This document shows, piece after piece, positions 3,392-11,337 of a stretch of 20,456 bases of DNA. Location of the stretch: positions 1 to 20,456 of IMG/VR virus record IMGVR_UViG_3300007540_000165; one strand, 5' to 3'. Made by a program: the position numbers and the translations under genes. This DNA comes from a virus. Under the pieces are notes generated by a model that worked only from the letters and a program-made list of their open reading frames with translations, was not told where the DNA came from and searched no databases. How positions within the stretch are numbered: the first letter of the stretch is position 1; every line of letters begins with the position of its first letter.

Positions 3392-4039
3392 ATGAATTCT
3401 GCTTATGTTTATGTTCATTTAAGGCTTGAATCTAACATTCCTTTTTATGTTGGAAAAGGAACGGGCAAAAGAATTGATGATAAAAAACAAAGAAATAAGC
3501 ATTGGACAAACATTGTTCGCAAAGATGGCGGCTGTAAAAAAATAAAAATAGTTTCAAATATTGATGATGAATTAGCTTATTTAGTTGAAATTGAAGCAAT
3601 AGATAAATATAAAAAATTAGGCATTAAATTAGCTAATAAAACAAATGGTGGAGAAGGCCAATTTGGAAATAAAGTAAATTTAGGAATTGCAAAATCACAA
3701 TCTCATAAAGATAAATTGCGAATTGTTAATTTAGGCAAAAAACAATCAAAAGAAACTATTGAAAAAAGAATAAAATCTATTAAAGAAAAAGAAAAAACAG
3801 GATGGATAAATCCTTTTTTATTAGAAAAAAATAAGCAAAAAGGAATAAAAAATTTCAATTTTTCTGGTCATTACCTTACGCCATTTGGAATTTTTTGCAG
3901 TCTATATGATGCAGCAAAAGCAAATAATTGTACCGAAAAAGCAATTAGAGTTAGATGCCACGGCAATACTTGTAAAGTAAAAGGCAAGATTTATTCATAC
4001 CCGCCAAAAGATGGCTGGTCATTTATTCCAAAGGTTTAA
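3392..4039 (+). CDS. Free-standing GIY-YIG homing-type endonuclease
   Basis: Predicted site-specific DNA endonuclease of the homing type. The N-terminal nuclease fold shows YVYVHL (5-10) and FYVGKGTGKR (18-27), the equivalents of the two GIY-YIG strands. A glutamate-bearing helix follows (VEIEAIDKYKKLG, 65-77; E67 or E69 is the likely metal ligand), then NKTNGGEG (82-89). Residues 98-130 contain a NUMOD3-like DNA-binding segment (GKKQSKETIEKR). The end (YLTPFGIFCSLYDAAKANN, then KDGWSF) looks like the helix-turn-helix-type module often found at the C-terminus of phage homing enzymes. The gene is richer in A, T and lysine than its neighbours, which fits independent transfer. It lies between terL and portal and does not break either. 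Its last codons supply the portal ribosome site. There is an AAGG ribosome site at 3381-3384. Confidence 0.88.
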   Translation: MNSAYVYVHLRLESNIPFYVGKGTGKRIDDKKQRNKHWTNIVRKDGGCKKIKIVSNIDDELAYLVEIEAIDKYKKLGIKLANKTNGGEGQFGNKVNLGIAKSQSHKDKLRIVNLGKKQSKETIEKRIKSIKEKEKTGWINPFLLEKNKQKGIKNFNFSGHYLTPFGIFCSLYDAAKANNCTEKAIRVRCHGNTCKVKGKIYSYPPKDGWSFIPKV

Positions 4040-4040
4040 T

Positions 4041-5447
4041 ATGGCTCTCACTGATATTTTCAAAAGAAAATCAGCAGTAAGTACTGAAAGCAACTCGTTA
4101 TTTGGAATGACGAGTTTGGGCAATAATGTTCTTCGGAATGCTGGTTCGCCACAAGCCTACCAGCAAATGCTTTATGTTACGACCAGCTCGGCAACGCAAG
4201 CCGGTCGAACTGTTGATATGTCTGTGCTATCTCGTAATAGCACTATTATGTCTTGTGTCGGCGTTAAAGCTCGCGCATTGTCTCAATTGCCAATTGAAGT
4301 TATGGCATACAACGCAAATGATGAATTGGTAAATGCTTGCCATGATCCTAGTATTGGTGCGCGAGACAAGATTAAAGCTAAGCAGGTTTATTCTTTGCTT
4401 TCCAATCCCAATAATTTTCAATCGCAATATGAGTTTTGGTATCAATTCTCAATGTGGCTTGATTTATCTGGTGAGGCATTTACTTTGCTATGGCGCAAAG
4501 ATCAGAATAAACAAGATCAAACTCCGCTTGAGATGTATATTCTTGATTCAACGCTGATTACTGCTCAATTAACGCCAACAAGATACCCAACTTACCGGCT
4601 ATCAACGCCAACTTATGGATTTAGTAAAGATGAGCCGCTTGCTGCATGGCAAGTAATGCACGCTAAAGAGGCTGCATGGCAAGGCTCTGCTGGTTTTAAT
4701 AAAGGCATTCTTGCTACTGAATTGGTAGCATTGGATCAAGACATTGATCTTTATGCAAATTATATAATGTTAAATGGCGCAAAACCATCCGGCTTATTTG
4801 TTACAGACCAAGTTATTCCAGATTCAAAATATAAAGAAATTGCTGCTCGGCTTAAGGATGGTTGGTCGCAACTTACTGGATCGCGTCCAAGTGATCCGTC
4901 AAAGCCGGGTCAAGGAATGTTGTTGGATAATGGCATGAAATATATGCCTGTTGATATGCTTACTATTCAAGATGCTGATGTAGCAAATTTAAAGCAGCAA
5001 ACGATGACAAGAATTTGCGCCTTGTTTGGCGTTCCGCATCAAATGGTTGGAGTTGGTGAAGGTAAGTTTAATAATACTCAAACATTGCTTGATGAATTTT
5101 ATAAATCAACAATGTCACCAATGATTACTAATGTTGAGCAAAAATTAAAATCTAGTTTGCTTCAGGGTTTTCCAAATCTTTATATTAAGTTTCAAACTCA
5201 AGATTTTTTAAAAGGCGCACCATTAGATCAAATGAATTATTCGGTCGCAGGTGTTAATGCTGGAATTTTTACGCCGAATGAGGCGCGTAAATATTTGGGA
5301 CTTTCTGAAATTAATGATAATATTGCCAATAAATTAGTTGCAAGTAATAATAAGCAACAAGCAATTAGCGGAACATCACCACAAGACACAGGCGGCGGCG
5401 GCAATACTAGTTCGGTCGGAAAGACTGGAAGCGCAGGTAAAGCATGA
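4041..5447 (+). CDS. Portal protein, HK97 family
   Basis: Forms the ring at the unique capsid vertex through which DNA enters and leaves, and to which the neck attaches. It has 468 residues from the chosen start. Features typical of the Phage_portal family are the early segment STIMSCVGVKARALSQLP, the long central wing-stem region, and the C-terminal GIFTPNEARKYLGL motif followed by a Gly/Ser-rich disordered end. ATG 4041 is preferred to the in-frame ATG at 4011 because AAAGG at 4030-4034 lies six bases before it and the protein then begins MALTDIFKRK, a normal portal start. The 4011 start has no ribosome site and would overlap the endonuclease gene by 29 bases. Its stop overlaps the next small ORF (ATGA at 5444-5447). 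Confidence 0.93.
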   Translation: MALTDIFKRKSAVSTESNSLFGMTSLGNNVLRNAGSPQAYQQMLYVTTSSATQAGRTVDMSVLSRNSTIMSCVGVKARALSQLPIEVMAYNANDELVNACHDPSIGARDKIKAKQVYSLLSNPNNFQSQYEFWYQFSMWLDLSGEAFTLLWRKDQNKQDQTPLEMYILDSTLITAQLTPTRYPTYRLSTPTYGFSKDEPLAAWQVMHAKEAAWQGSAGFNKGILATELVALDQDIDLYANYIMLNGAKPSGLFVTDQVIPDSKYKEIAARLKDGWSQLTGSRPSDPSKPGQGMLLDNGMKYMPVDMLTIQDADVANLKQQTMTRICALFGVPHQMVGVGEGKFNNTQTLLDEFYKSTMSPMITNVEQKLKSSLLQGFPNLYIKFQTQDFLKGAPLDQMNYSVAGVNAGIFTPNEARKYLGLSEINDNIANKLVASNNKQQAISGTSPQDTGGGGNTSSVGKTGSAGKA

Positions 5448-5575
5448 AGCCCGATCATAAGCAATCAAAGCAAAAGCAGATTGCGGATAAAATAAAATTA
5501 AACGCCGATATTCGCATTAAAAAACCATTTAAAACTAATGGTATGAAAGAAAAAAAGGTGGTTTTCTATGACTAA
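5444..5575 (+). CDS. Small basic protein of unknown function (43 aa)
   Basis: I do not recognise this protein. The ORF fills what would otherwise be a 120-base gap. It begins with an ATGA overlap with the portal stop and ends eight bases inside the protease start, the same tight packing as the real genes around it. It reads MKPDHKQSKQ… to …KKVVFYD. About a third of its residues are Lys or Arg with no cysteine or tryptophan, so it should be strongly basic and mostly disordered or helical. Its 3' end contains the AAAAAAGG ribosome site of the protease, so translation across it may only serve to couple portal and protease. It could be a DNA- or scaffold-binding peptide, or non-functional. Only the coding potential and junctions are observed. 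Confidence 0.5.
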   Translation: MKPDHKQSKQKQIADKIKLNADIRIKKPFKTNGMKEKKVVFYD

Positions 5576-6374
5576 AAACGTCACTTTTGTATTTGAATCT
5601 CAAGTAAATCTCGGCGTTAATGCTGACGAATCCGCTTCCCCATCCGGCACTATTGAAGCCATGCTTACTACATGGGGCGCACGAGAAGGCGCAGACGGTC
5701 GCAAATTTAATTATCAACCAGAGCCATTTAAAGAATGGGCAAAAGAATTTGCTGCTACTGGCAAGCCTTTGCCTATGTATTTTCAGCATAACTCCGAAGC
5801 CATGCCGGTAGGTAAATGGGATGAATTTGAATTTACTGATGAAGGCATGATCGGTAAAGGTTCAATTTATGTAAATACTACGGCAGGCAAAGATATTTAT
5901 ACCATCATGAAAGAATCGCCTCTTATGATTGGTGGCGTTTCTGTTGGTGCATATGCCGATGAATATCAATGGGTAAAAGAGGATGGAACTCCATTCCCTG
6001 CCGGATCGCAAGATTATTGGGACGAAGGATATTTTCAAATCACAAAAGGTGGTTTGTCTGAAGTATCCATTGTTATGAATCCAAATAATCCAAATGCAAA
6101 CATCAGCAAGATGGAATATTTCCGCGCTGATGGTTCGGCAGATTTAAAAGTATTTGAAAAATCTTTGCGTGATGCTGGATTTTCTCGAACAGATGCGAAA
6201 AAAGCCGCATCTGTATTTGGCAAGGCTATCGGTGAGCGTGATGCTCTTATCGAAAAAGCTGAACCGACTCCCGATGTGCGTGATGCTAAATCGGATGCGG
6301 CAATTGAGATTCTTGCGGCACTTGAACAACGCGAGTTGTTAAAAGCTCTTGAATCACGACTCAAAAAATCTTAA
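5568..6374 (+). CDS. Prohead maturation protease, HK97 family (S78/U35)
   Basis: Serine protease packed inside the prohead that removes the N-terminal scaffold domain of the major capsid protein, letting the shell expand. In 268 residues it shows the family landmarks: MYFQHNSEAMPVGKW (70-84) with catalytic His74, the GGVSVGAYADEY strand (122-133) with candidate nucleophile Ser125, and GGLSEVSIVMNPNNPNA (161-177), the usual 'LsEvSlV-PANp-A' strand. The C-terminal tail (about 190-268) holds a 'LRDAGFSRTDAKKAA' helix common in these enzymes and may be cleaved during maturation. It lies directly before its substrate, capsid protein 1. The ribosome site is AAGGTGG at 5555-5561. Confidence 0.92.
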   Translation: MTKNVTFVFESQVNLGVNADESASPSGTIEAMLTTWGAREGADGRKFNYQPEPFKEWAKEFAATGKPLPMYFQHNSEAMPVGKWDEFEFTDEGMIGKGSIYVNTTAGKDIYTIMKESPLMIGGVSVGAYADEYQWVKEDGTPFPAGSQDYWDEGYFQITKGGLSEVSIVMNPNNPNANISKMEYFRADGSADLKVFEKSLRDAGFSRTDAKKAASVFGKAIGERDALIEKAEPTPDVRDAKSDAAIEILAALEQRELLKALESRLKKS

Positions 6375-6383
6375 GGAATAATT

Positions 6384-7724
6384 ATGTCTAAAGAAATTCT
6401 CGAAAAACTGGATGCTATTGAAGCCTCTGTTAAAACTGAAGCTGCTGCTGCTGCTGATGTAAAAATTACCGAAGCACTTGCCGCGGCTGAAGCCGCATTT
6501 GCTGAAAAAGTTTCTGCTCTTGAAGCTAAAGTTGCAAGCATTCAAGCACCATCAATTATCAAGCCTGAAGCCAGCATTCGTGCCGGTGTTAATCGCTCGG
6601 TAAAAGAACAACTTTCTGCATTCTTTAAATCAGGCGGTCGCGCTGAAAAAGAACTGAAAATGTTTGAAGATGAAAGCCACCATGCTGCTTACATGAAGGA
6701 AGCCTCGGCTCTTACTGGCGGCGGCAATAACCAAGGTGGCCGTACAGCTTATGATCCAGTATTTGCGGCACTGCGTCTCGCAAATCCAATGCGTGGCGTT
6801 TCGCGTACTGTTGCAACTGATGGCTCGTCTTATCAATTTCGCAGCAAAGTAGGCAATGCAGGGGCCTCTTGGGGTTATACGATTCAGAATAACGGTTCGG
6901 CTACTACTGAAAACACCACAATCTGGCAATTGGTTTTGCAAGATTTGAACGTGCAATTTCCAATCCGCACTGCTGCGCTGGATGATATTGACGGTCTTGA
7001 AGCCAATGTTGTTGACGATATGCTGGTTGAATTTAGCCAAGCTGAAGCTCTGTCAATGATTCAAAATAACGATCAAGGCGCGACCAGCTTGCCATACGGC
7101 GGCTCTAATGGTTTGCGTGGTTTGAATCAATACGCTGGCGCGGCTGCAACTTATGCAGGCGGATCAGTTACTACGGCAGCGTTCGGCACTAGCGGCACAG
7201 GCAGCACTTCCGGTCTGCATTCGCTGGCAACTTATGACCAGTTGACAACTAATGCGAATACTGTTGGCGCAGCAAATATCACTTATAAAGACGTGGTGAA
7301 CTTTGTTTACTCGCTGCCGCAACAGTACTGGACTCCAACGGCTAAATTTATCATTAGCCCAATTTTGCTCCAGCAAATTCGCGGCTTGGTTGATAGCCAA
7401 GGTCGTCCAATTTATGTCGATGGTCTGGCCCGTACTGATGGCATTGTTGGCTCGCTGCTTGGCTTTGATGTAGTTGTTAATAAGTATCTTGACACTCCTT
7501 CACAAACATCGACCGGCTCTGCTGGCACTACTAGCCTATATCCAATGTACTTTGGTGATTTCAATCGCTTCCATAGCATTGTGGATCGTTTGAATATGGT
7601 TATGCGTCGTTATGACCAGACCCTGCCGGGCTTTATTACTTTCTTCGGCGAAAAGCGTCTTGCAACTTCGGTTGTCGATCCTTTTGCCGGTGTTCGTTAT
7701 CGCTCGACTGGTACGGCAACCTAA
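6384..7724 (+). CDS. Major capsid protein 1, HK97 fold, with delta domain
   Basis: Main shell subunit. Residues 1-55 are an Ala/Glu-rich helical, coiled-coil segment, and residues 1 to about 105 form the N-terminal scaffold (delta) domain expected of HK97-type capsids. The mature shell domain starts near YMKEASALTGGG (103-114); in HK97 itself the cleavage is after residue 103, so cleavage close to K105 is a reasonable inference. The core then runs to DPFAGVRYRSTG near the C-terminus, typical of the Phage_capsid family. A strong AAGGA ribosome site sits at 6373-6377, six bases before ATG. The gene is followed by an intrinsic terminator, as expected for the most abundant protein. It is clearly paralogous to the next gene, which lacks the delta domain. 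Confidence 0.93.
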   Translation: MSKEILEKLDAIEASVKTEAAAAADVKITEALAAAEAAFAEKVSALEAKVASIQAPSIIKPEASIRAGVNRSVKEQLSAFFKSGGRAEKELKMFEDESHHAAYMKEASALTGGGNNQGGRTAYDPVFAALRLANPMRGVSRTVATDGSSYQFRSKVGNAGASWGYTIQNNGSATTENTTIWQLVLQDLNVQFPIRTAALDDIDGLEANVVDDMLVEFSQAEALSMIQNNDQGATSLPYGGSNGLRGLNQYAGAAATYAGGSVTTAAFGTSGTGSTSGLHSLATYDQLTTNANTVGAANITYKDVVNFVYSLPQQYWTPTAKFIISPILLQQIRGLVDSQGRPIYVDGLARTDGIVGSLLGFDVVVNKYLDTPSQTSTGSAGTTSLYPMYFGDFNRFHSIVDRLNMVMRRYDQTLPGFITFFGEKRLATSVVDPFAGVRYRSTGTAT

Positions 7725-7739
7725 GCAGCAAATTAAATT

Positions 7740-7769
7740 CCCATCGGGTTTCGGCTCGATGGGGTTTTT
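7740..7769 (+). terminator. Intrinsic terminator between the two capsid genes
   Basis: CCCATCG (7740-7746) pairs perfectly with CGATGGG (7757-7763). Inside, G7748-C7755 and a G-T wobble can extend the stem over a six-base loop. A run of five T follows (7765-7769). It begins 15 bases after the stop of capsid protein 1 and ends 20 bases before the start of capsid protein 2. It should end most transcripts after the major capsid gene and let a fraction read through. Confidence 0.85.
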
Positions 7770-7789
7770 AAGAATTCAGGAAATAAAAA

Positions 7790-8833
7790 ATGAAAATTAC
7801 CGAACGTATCCTTGCTGGCATTAAATCTACGCTTGAAACAGGCGATAAGATAAAAATTGATTTGCGCGAAGCATCTGCGCTGACCGGCAGCGGTGATGGT
7901 GTCGGTGGTCGAACATTTTTTGACGATGCTTTTGCATCTTTCCGATATGCAAACCCGTTTAGACAAGGAGCGCGTGAAATTTCCGCTGCAAATATGTCTA
8001 GCGTTCAATTTGTAGCAAAAACTGGTAATGCGGCAAATGCCACTAATCCTTGGGGTTATACATTTACTCCTGATAGCGGATCGCCAAATATCAACACCAG
8101 CATTTGGCAAATGCCAACTCAAGTTATTACAGCACAGCTCCCAATTCGTTCGGCTGTGTTGTCTGATGTAAATGGTTTGAACAATGTGCTGATTGAAGAT
8201 TTGATGATGGAATTTGCGGCTTTAGAAGGCGCGTCCATGGGTTTAAATAACGATCAATCAGGCAGCACTACTGCAAGCACAGGCGCAACATATGGCTTGC
8301 GTGGCTTGAATTATTATCCGGGCGCAGCAGGTGCAGTTTCCGCATTCGGCACTAGCGGCACAGCTTTAACAAATGGTTTGCATACAATTGCAACGGTAGG
8401 ATCAACAATTGCGGGTTTGAGCAAATCAACTCTTTCCGATATGCGGGCAGCTTTGCCCGGTCAATATTGGTCGCTTCCCGGCACTGCTTGGATGATGCAC
8501 CCAACCGCAATCGATGTTTTGACGAAAGCAATTACAGCGGGAAATGTTCCGTATTTTGTTGAAACTGGCGTGGCAAATGGCGGTTCTGTTGTTAATGTAT
8601 TCGGTTGGCCTGTTATTCCCAATCCTTATCTTGATCCGTGGTCAAGCGTAGGCGCAAAATCTATTTATCTGGCTAATTGGCCTCGTTTTATGACGATTGC
8701 TGATGTCCAAGAAATGGATATTCAAGCAATGGATCAAACCGCTCCCGGCTTCATTACGCTGTTTGCTCAAAAACGTATGGCAAGCACTGTTCGCGACCCG
8801 TTTGCCGGTGTTCGTGTTATTGCGACTGCTTAA
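7790..8833 (+). CDS. Second HK97-fold capsid protein, lacking the delta domain
   Basis: Paralogue of the preceding capsid protein, 347 residues. REASALTGSG at 26-35 aligns with KEASALTGGG at 105-114 of copy 1, an offset of 79 residues, so only a short 25-residue N-terminal arm remains where copy 1 has its scaffold domain. Collinear matches continue to the end: GGRT, ANPFR, NPWGYTF, IRSAVLSDVNGL, a shared AFGTSGT, the LPGQYW region, DQTAPGFITLF and DPFAGVR. No frameshift or internal stop is seen, so it looks functional and not a decaying copy. AGGAAA at 7778-7783 is its ribosome site. The terminator upstream suggests it is made in smaller amounts. It may form a special position in the shell, such as the pentons, by analogy with T4 gp24, or a minor mixed component. 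That role is inference. Confidence 0.88.
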   Translation: MKITERILAGIKSTLETGDKIKIDLREASALTGSGDGVGGRTFFDDAFASFRYANPFRQGAREISAANMSSVQFVAKTGNAANATNPWGYTFTPDSGSPNINTSIWQMPTQVITAQLPIRSAVLSDVNGLNNVLIEDLMMEFAALEGASMGLNNDQSGSTTASTGATYGLRGLNYYPGAAGAVSAFGTSGTALTNGLHTIATVGSTIAGLSKSTLSDMRAALPGQYWSLPGTAWMMHPTAIDVLTKAITAGNVPYFVETGVANGGSVVNVFGWPVIPNPYLDPWSSVGAKSIYLANWPRFMTIADVQEMDIQAMDQTAPGFITLFAQKRMASTVRDPFAGVRVIATA

Positions 8834-8835
8834 TT

Positions 8836-9489
8836 ATGCCGAGCGAAACGACAGGCTTAGGTTATGTGGCTCTTGCGCCAACGCGCAATCCATTTAACTA
8901 TGATCGCTTTGAGCAAACGAGCAGAAACATTGCTGCAGTTTGGTTAACGCTTACTGAAATTCGCAATCAGATCAATCTTTATTCTGACACTTCGCAAGAT
9001 ACTTATCTTTCTGCTTTAGAAGTTGCTGTCAGAATGGCGATTGAGGATTATTTAGGAATGCCAATTGCGCCGGTTTCTTACCGTGTTTATTATGGTGTTT
9101 CAGCTTTATATGGCTCCCCTATTTCTTTAGATTTGCCGGAAATAAGCCAAACAGGTGTAACAATTGATTCAGTAAAATATTATGATGATTCAACAACTCC
9201 GGTTTTAACTACGGTTTCAGGATCATTATATTTTTATGATTCAACCGGCTCAAAAGTTATTTGCTCTGATTTGCCAAGCAATATTAATCCGCAAATGACT
9301 TCTCCGGTAATTGTTGATTACACTTTGGCAGCAAGTGCATTAGCAGATTATCCAGTTATTAAACAAGCTGGATTGCTGCTATACACGCATCTTTATAATA
9401 ATCGCAGCAATACTACTGAATTGAAATTAACTGATTTGCCATTTGGCGTAAATACTTTGCTTCGTCCTTATAAACCTTTGGTGATGTAA
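8836..9489 (+). CDS. Head-tail connector (adaptor), gp6-like
   Basis: Adaptor that forms the ring under the portal. The 217-residue protein has the gp6-like/phiE125 gp8 layout: helical N-terminal part (AAVWLTLTEIRNQINL, then TYLSALEVAVRMAIEDYLG), a central beta section starting 'LDLPEISQTGVTIDSVKYYD', then a long helix with hydrophobic face (DYPVIKQAGLLLYTHLYNNR), and the closing LPFGVNTLLRPYKP, which is the family signature. It starts two bases after the capsid 2 stop. No clear ribosome site is seen, so it probably depends on ribosomes finishing the capsid gene. Its stop shares one base with the next start (TAATG). Confidence 0.85.
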   Translation: MPSETTGLGYVALAPTRNPFNYDRFEQTSRNIAAVWLTLTEIRNQINLYSDTSQDTYLSALEVAVRMAIEDYLGMPIAPVSYRVYYGVSALYGSPISLDLPEISQTGVTIDSVKYYDDSTTPVLTTVSGSLYFYDSTGSKVICSDLPSNINPQMTSPVIVDYTLAASALADYPVIKQAGLLLYTHLYNNRSNTTELKLTDLPFGVNTLLRPYKPLVM

Positions 9490-10283: not shown

Positions 10284-10778
10284 ATGGCTCTCCCGAATAA
10301 AATTCTACCCGGTTTCAGCGCGGCTCTTTATTGCCAACCAACCGCATCGCCAACGCCTTTGACGACTGCTCAACTTTCTCTAGTTGCATCCGTTTCTGCT
10401 ATTGCTACAAACGGCAATTTGATTAATGTTGAAGCAATTCCTGCTTTCGGTCAAGATGACGGTGTCGCATCATTTAGTATTGCTGGCTCCCGTCAATCAG
10501 ATAAAATTCCTGTGCAATCTGCTCCAACTTCATTGAGCATTACGGCCCCATGGAATCCTGCCGATACTAATCTTTTGCTGATGCGCGCTGATGCTTACAG
10601 CGGCACGATTGATCGCACGTTTGTGATCTCTGCTACTGATGGCACTGGCATTGTTTATTATGCCTTTAACGGTCGCGTGAGCCAGTTTGATATTGATTCA
10701 GCTCCCGGTGCAGAGGCCAAGGCAATGTTTACGATCCATCCGCGTGGTGGTCAATACGGCTGGTCAAATAACGCATAA
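10284..10778 (+). CDS. Major tail tube protein, copy 1
   Basis: Predicted tail tube subunit, 164 residues, rich in beta-strand with few charges. I base the role on position (after the tail terminator, before the chaperones and tape measure), on its strong ribosome site (AAGGA at 10273-10277, six bases from ATG) and on being followed by a close paralogue and a strong terminator, as expected for a very abundant protein. It begins MALPNKILPGFSAALYC. The middle (residues 53-92) is identical to residues 62-101 of copy 2. Its C-terminal half also aligns almost without gaps: DAYSGTIDRTFV, FNGRVSQF, PGAEAK and HPRGGQYGWSNN. I do not recognise a named Pfam signature. A decoration or minor tail role for one of the copies remains possible. 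Confidence 0.78.
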   Translation: MALPNKILPGFSAALYCQPTASPTPLTTAQLSLVASVSAIATNGNLINVEAIPAFGQDDGVASFSIAGSRQSDKIPVQSAPTSLSITAPWNPADTNLLLMRADAYSGTIDRTFVISATDGTGIVYYAFNGRVSQFDIDSAPGAEAKAMFTIHPRGGQYGWSNNA

Positions 10779-10787
10779 GGATTAATC

Positions 10788-11306
10788 ATGACTATTCCAG
10801 CAAAAGTTCTACCGGGTTTTGCCGCTTCATTTTGGATGCAATCCGGCGCGGCTCCAACGCCATTGACAACTGCAAACCTTTCAGTTTGGACCGCTTCAGT
10901 TGCAACCATTGTCGGCACTGCTGCAAATGGCACAGGCGCGGCTGGTGTCGCTCTTAATATAGAGGCTGTTCCGGCATTTGGTCAAGATGATGGCGTGGCT
11001 TCATTTTCAATTGCTGGATCGCGGCAATCTGACAAAATTCCGGTACAGTCTGCTCCAACATCGCTATCAATTACTGCGCCTTGGAATCCATCTGATGCCG
11101 GTTTGCTTTTGATTCGTGGCGATGCTTACAGCGGAACTATTGATCGAACATTTGTTGTTGCTGCTGTTGATGGCACAAATACAGTTGCTTATGCTTTTAA
11201 CGGCAGAGTTTCTCAATTTCAAATTGATGCAGCTCCGGGCGCAGAAGCCAAATGTATTTTTACTGTTCATCCGCGTGGCAATCAATACGGCTGGTCGAAT
11301 AACTAA
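10788..11306 (+). CDS. Major tail tube protein, copy 2 (tandem paralogue)
   Basis: Paralogue of the preceding gene, 172 residues, nine bases downstream. Ribosome site TAAGGA is at 10776-10781. It differs mainly in the first 60 residues, which are longer and Ala/Thr/Gly-rich (…TAANGTGAAGVALNIEAV). From residue 62 it follows copy 1 closely, with 40 identical residues in a row, then DAYSGTIDRTFVV, FNGRVSQFQID and HPRGNQYGWSNN at the end. Its codons are largely different from copy 1 in the identical part, so this is not a recent duplication. No terminator lies between the copies, and one follows this gene, so both should be produced at similar levels. The two may build one mixed tube, or a main tube plus a special ring; the sequence does not say. 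Confidence 0.78.
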   Translation: MTIPAKVLPGFAASFWMQSGAAPTPLTTANLSVWTASVATIVGTAANGTGAAGVALNIEAVPAFGQDDGVASFSIAGSRQSDKIPVQSAPTSLSITAPWNPSDAGLLLIRGDAYSGTIDRTFVVAAVDGTNTVAYAFNGRVSQFQIDAAPGAEAKCIFTVHPRGNQYGWSNN

Positions 11307-11315
11307 TACCCTTTT

Positions 11316-11337
11316 CGCCCTTCGGGGCGTTTTTTTT
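11316..11337 (+). terminator. Intrinsic terminator after the tail tube genes
   Basis: A CGCCC/GGGCG stem (11316-11320 with 11325-11329) closed by a stable TTCG tetraloop is followed by eight T (11330-11337). It starts ten bases after the stop of tube copy 2. It should lower expression of the downstream chaperone and tape measure genes compared with the tube genes. Confidence 0.92.

Follow-up and report, generated by a model that had tools for sequence, protein, structure and literature searches.

In HK97-type heads, the textbook case is that of one self-scaffolding protein that makes both the hexamers and the pentamers of the shell. Additional capsid paralogues that serve special positions are nevertheless known. 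In phage T4, gp23 and gp24 are HK97-fold paralogues that arose by duplication; gp24, the minor of the two, is located at the pentons, and both undergo processing by the head protease, with 10 residues removed from gp24 compared with 65 from gp23 (PMC9958956). A homologue of the capsid protein, Ccm of SaPIbov5, has also been located at the pentons by cryo-EM, and its delta domain is the shorter one (87 compared with 128). Ccm alone formed no capsids, and its authors suspected that the delta domains, together with the N-arms, bring hexamers together (PMC8569155). The 'vertex protein' of phiCbK was considered as a further precedent and rejected, since the band was gp68 itself in another form (PMC3556154).

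The locus described here lies in a 20.5 kb IMG/VR virus fragment with a siphophage-type structural module; the whole stretch analysed, 20,456 nt, is referred to as the window. The genes of the module are ordered terminase, portal, S78 prohead protease, c1, c2, connectors, major tail protein genes and tape measure. Both capsid genes, c1 and c2 (Table 1), have exactly the boundaries and lengths given in a preliminary description of the window, and its proposal that they are tandem paralogues, aligning collinearly from the predicted maturation site onwards, is confirmed. By BLASTP, residues 104–442 of c1 match residues 25–346 of c2 with 138/345 identities (40%, E=3e-73), collinear to the C-termini, and the exact motifs KEASALTGGG and REASALTGSG are found at c1 105 and c2 26 respectively. 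The c1 protein matches the Pfam family Phage_capsid with 94.7 bits against a cut-off of 24.2, and its sequence also matches the RcGTA capsid protein (phmmer, 5e-6). No Pfam family is matched by c2 at 1e-3, and its match to PHROG 10, 'major head protein', is weak (2.7e-7). An origin of c2 from c1 by faulty annotation or a frameshift is ruled out, as both open reading frames are intact and present in all relatives; each has its own start and ribosome-binding-like site.

Table 1. Features of the capsid region, numbered from the first letter of the window.
Feature	Position	Strand	Evidence
Portal protein	4011..5447	+	PF04860 6e-57
Prohead maturation protease, S78 type	5568..6374	+	PF04586 6e-9; PHROG 80 1e-14
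c1, full-length HK97-type major capsid protein, 446 aa	6384..7724	+	PF05065 8e-27; PHROG 10 5.6e-30
c1 delta (scaffold) domain, residues 1 to ∼105	6384..6698	+	Predicted helices; c2 alignment begins at residue 104
c1–c2 intergenic region	7725..7789	+	Terminator-like hairpin and Shine-Dalgarno-like AGGA of c2
c2, second capsid paralogue of predicted HK97 fold, 347 aa, most of delta domain missing	7790..8833	+	
c2 short conserved leader, residues 1–26 (predicted helix, then DLR before EASALTGSG)	7790..7867	+	
Head-tail connector, directly 3' of c2	8836..9489	+	PHROG 442 5.5e-13

Models were obtained with AlphaFold, for c2 from 89 c2 orthologues alone and for c1, separately, from 87 c1 orthologues. 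Both proteins are predicted to have the HK97 fold, as had been proposed, in models of moderate confidence (mean pLDDT 67 for c2 and 66 for c1) in which residues 70–106 of c2 are poorly predicted. The closest solved structure to both models is the capsid protein of the Rhodobacter capsulatus GTA, Rcc01687, the single GTA protein returned (6tsu for c2, Z 20.8, Foldseek E 1e-14; 6tb9 for c1, Z 18.8). HK97 prohead I (8fqk_A) is also matched by both, with Z 17.2 for c2 and 14.8 for c1. The c2 model aligns with encapsulins over most of its length (Z ∼15–16.6), and the two-component Family 2B encapsulins 9bje and 9bix are among the fold matches.

The two proteins differ at the N-terminus. In the c1 model, helices at residues 2–52, 65–82 and 97–108 precede the shell domain, as in the HK97-type delta domain; with ∼100 helical N-terminal residues and an S78 protease gene nearby, c1 has the features of a delta-domain capsid protein. 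Its putative cleavage site, at the end of this domain, is placed from the aligned motif. The c2 model opens with a helix at residues 3–17, and in a structural alignment HK97 prohead I from residue 76 onwards corresponds to c1 from residue 68 and to c2 from residue 2, which indicates that c2 lacks roughly the first 65–75 delta residues. As modelled, c2 appears to have lost the long first delta helix (2–52 in c1) and to have kept the last part of the domain with a maturation-site-like motif. In most relatives the c2 leader reads M-(K/T)-I-T-E-K-I-L-x-G-I-K, or something very similar, ahead of EASALTGSG, and we regard this leader, of ∼26 residues compared with ∼105 in c1, as a probable remnant of the delta domain. 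The preliminary description had called c2 naturally scaffold-free; this is contradicted by the conserved leader, with its predicted helix and maturation-site-like motif, and 'scaffold mostly lost' is the better wording. The residue at the presumed cleavage site (P1) is Lys or Arg in 69 of 87 c1 and 64 of 89 c2 sequences, strictly basic in neither, and suggests possible leader removal by cleavage at this point. The S78 protease is likely to process c1 and perhaps also c2.

IMG/VR was searched with c2, c1 and divergent orthologues, and GTDB genomes were also searched, yielding five contigs. The relatives are widespread freshwater phages related to the Methylophilaceae phage P19250A, and the gene pair, for which the preliminary description had proposed such a search, is conserved among them. 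In the combined set, c2 is present in 303/303 loci where c1 has >400 nt downstream, a count that is not deduplicated by contig and contains 211 distinct c1 proteins. The least biased count comes from loci fetched with c1 alone and having >500 nt downstream, in 74/74 of which c2 is the next recognised gene; just two loci in this c1-alone scan are without c2, both ending within 93 nt of c1. The isolate P19250A carries direct orthologues in the same order, P19250A_0005 (c1) and P19250A_0006 (c2), which differ only in that the latter is annotated 'hypothetical protein'. The longest contigs of the relatives are mostly ∼36–40 kb, and P19250A is 38.7 kb. One contig that carries the pair, IMGVR_UViG_3300022748_000017 (L248), has 75,987 bp, about twice the family's usual 38 kb, which could mean that the assembly is doubled or that the genome is larger.

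Two other phages were considered and rejected. Methylophilales phage Venkman (MT375522) is reported to be a marine relative of P19250A (PMC8163748). A tblastn comparison found no match to c1 or c2 in its record; its head module is a different one, with a separate scaffolding protein and MCP and a long portal, and this rules it out as a second isolate with the pair. Salmonella phage 118970_sal3, which gave two weak matches, has one MCP of the ordinary kind, and at the place checked no further capsid gene adjoins it.

In a tree built from 36 sequences each of c1 and c2, with three single-MCP outgroup sequences, c1 and c2 form two groups with one change of label, although support at the root is weak (SH-aLRT 26 for the c1 side and 86 for the c2 side) and the outgroup branch is very long. 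The single change of label points to one c1/c2 duplication, older than the sampled family, and the single split, with its low support on the c1 side, rules out recent or repeated duplications. Some side chains separate the two groups consistently, among them c1 F322/c2 W234, c1 K367/c2 P279 and c1 L403/c2 E307, numbered as in the proteins of the window. In 64 close, independent pairs the median dN/dS was 0.082 (c1) and 0.087 (c2); c2 is under strong purifying selection, with a constraint like that on c1. At larger distances c2 diverges more than c1 (mean distance 0.34 compared with 0.25, 40 loci). Over the same 40 loci, agreement with the distance matrices of portal, protease and connector is poor for c1 and above all for c2; c2 is the least congruent with the head module, with correlations of 0.63–0.68 compared with 0.78–0.93 among the other genes (0.91 for portal and connector). 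This suggests that lineages have exchanged c2 or that rates are uneven.

A terminator-like hairpin at 7739–7764, followed by TTTTT, separates c1 from c2. By a strict definition, 47 of 50 diverse loci have such a hairpin with a T run separating the two genes, compared with 0.02 expected by shuffling, and an intergenic hairpin is present in 97 of the 117 distinct c1–c2 intergenic sequences, its stem varying widely from lineage to lineage. It is not specific to the pair, since a similar hairpin lies 3' of the single MCP in Bcep176 and in a Desulfofustis phage, and we conclude that it is a marker of where the capsid gene ends rather than a device of the pair. The hairpin leaves c2 on the far side from c1, alongside the low-copy connectors, and we infer lower production of c2 than of c1; this gene setting is compatible with c2 as a lower-abundance partner.

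The window holds a second clean terminator-like hairpin at 11316–11329, 3' of the second tail protein gene, so that both presumed high-copy products, capsid and tail tube, have one. The major tail protein gene is itself in tandem (10284–10778 and 10788–11306, 74% identity); among 82 relatives with enough sequence, two copies are found in 43, one in 38 and three in one. In loci L034 and L052 the c1–c2 gap is 645 nt long, with the hairpin and T run at its start, and contains a 211-codon open frame. By eye, this frame resembles (YTYIHF...PFYIGKG motif) a 215-aa ORF at 3392–4039 of the window, between terminase and portal, which has a GIY-YIG-like start, also recognised by eye. A mobile endonuclease-like gene may thus have been inserted between the capsid genes in L034 and L052. 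A homologue of the 3392–4039 ORF at the same place was seen in only 1 of 113 loci scanned, possibly the source stretch itself.

We propose that c1 is the major capsid protein, whose delta domain would drive procapsid assembly and then be removed by the adjoining S78 protease, and that c2, derived from c1 by one old tandem duplication, would serve the same shell as a specialised minor subunit. After the duplication c2 would have lost the long outer helix of the delta domain. Retaining little scaffold itself, it would not nucleate a shell alone, and would instead be built into lattices nucleated by c1, its short leader possibly being clipped at the site homologous to that of c1. It would most probably form the pentons at the eleven non-portal vertices, like T4 gp24 or SaPIbov5 Ccm. 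In a T=7 shell, which is assumed here, the pentons would need 55 copies and the hexons 360, and the hairpin 3' of c1 would keep the c2 transcript below the level of c1. The genome size of HK97, a T=7 phage, is near that of the relatives' contigs, and capsid enlargement therefore need not be invoked. That c2 is some kind of shell or assembly component is highly probable. Its assignment as the penton subunit, drawn by analogy from the position of the shorter-propeptide paralogues gp24 and Ccm, is the reading we favour and consider reasonably probable. A stricter version, in which the delta scaffold is restricted to c1, now a hexon specialist unable to close vertices, and the mostly scaffold-deleted c2 is an obligatory penton, is more tentative, and we regard it as slightly more doubtful than credible.

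All that points to a conserved minor subunit of the shell counts equally if c2 is part of the virion away from the pentons, whether at the portal vertex only or in the hexons, randomly or at fixed places and perhaps for stability. The c2 gene does adjoin the head-tail connector genes. Both solved precedents for a shorter paralogue place it at the pentons, however, and no portal-vertex-specific feature is seen in the c2 sequence; we consider a non-penton position rather unlikely. An assembly regulator with no fixed place in the mature virion, acting on shell size or shape or as a guard against capsid-hijacking satellites, would accord with the loss of most of the delta domain and has a parallel in Ccm, a capsid homologue that redirects head size. 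The low congruence of c2 distances would be unsurprising in a module under changing pressure. Such a role is nevertheless improbable for a protein that is universal in the family and constrained as strongly as c1, and since Ccm works by occupying pentons, it is not cleanly separate from the penton role.

The alignment of the c2 model, with its N-terminal helix and no long delta domain, on to encapsulins raises the question of whether c2 forms a small compartment of its own outside the phage head. The best structural matches, however, are phage and GTA capsid proteins, in sequence c2 is closest to c1, its gene is flanked by capsid and connector genes within the head module, and no cargo gene was recognised in the window; this explanation is very improbable. 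A decaying or neutral duplicate without function might be suspected from the loss of most of a domain, the lack of a Pfam match and the long branch that carries the c2 group, but the frame is intact in ∼200 distinct c2 proteins, and the low dN/dS and complete retention rule out decay, leaving this reading a negligible probability.

If the stricter version holds, the family would represent a phage-encoded division of labour within a small HK97-type head. A natural family with a scaffold-truncated second copy would also allow a test of what the delta domain does at each position, and virion proteomics and cryo-EM are feasible because a Methylophilaceae strain (IMCC19250) has supported growth of the isolate P19250A. 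A protein that is common in freshwater viromes and now annotated as hypothetical would gain a likely function.

No phage-encoded capsid pair of this sort outside T4 was found in the open-access papers searched, nor any virion proteomics or structure for the present family, and in those papers we found no precedent for a phage-encoded, mostly scaffold-deleted paralogue fixed in a family of small delta-domain siphophages. The Family 2B encapsulins (Streptomyces lydicus) likewise form shells of two HK97-fold proteins, but are cellular compartments, with a weaker match, no portal and no phage context. The preliminary description took T4 gp23/gp24 as the precedent; this stands as a similar case. 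The second precedent, SaPIbov5 Ccm (PMC8569155), had been overlooked. Ccm is likewise a homologue with a shorter delta domain, and it co-assembles with the delta-type capsid protein of phi12. It is, however, satellite-encoded to hijack a helper phage and has 24% identity, whereas c2 belongs to the phage itself, occurs throughout the family and retains only its short leader.

In T4, as here, one phage has two HK97-fold paralogues, of which the one with the shorter propeptide is minor in T4. T4 has a separate scaffold core, ∼20% identity between gp23 and gp24, and a large prolate head; c1 and c2 belong to a delta-domain, HK97-type head module, share ∼40% identity, are encoded by neighbouring genes that a hairpin separates, and come from genomes near 38 kb. 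The penton position is established in T4 and is proposed for c2. The contrast drawn previously, that gp24 keeps a propeptide, falls, because c2 has kept a leader and gp24 loses few residues compared with gp23, so that the two cases look alike. Judged by its gene, c2 is a paralogue of the major capsid protein encoded directly beside it and presumably co-expressed with it, and by analogy it fits the pattern of Ccm and gp24, that of a penton paralogue with a shorter propeptide.
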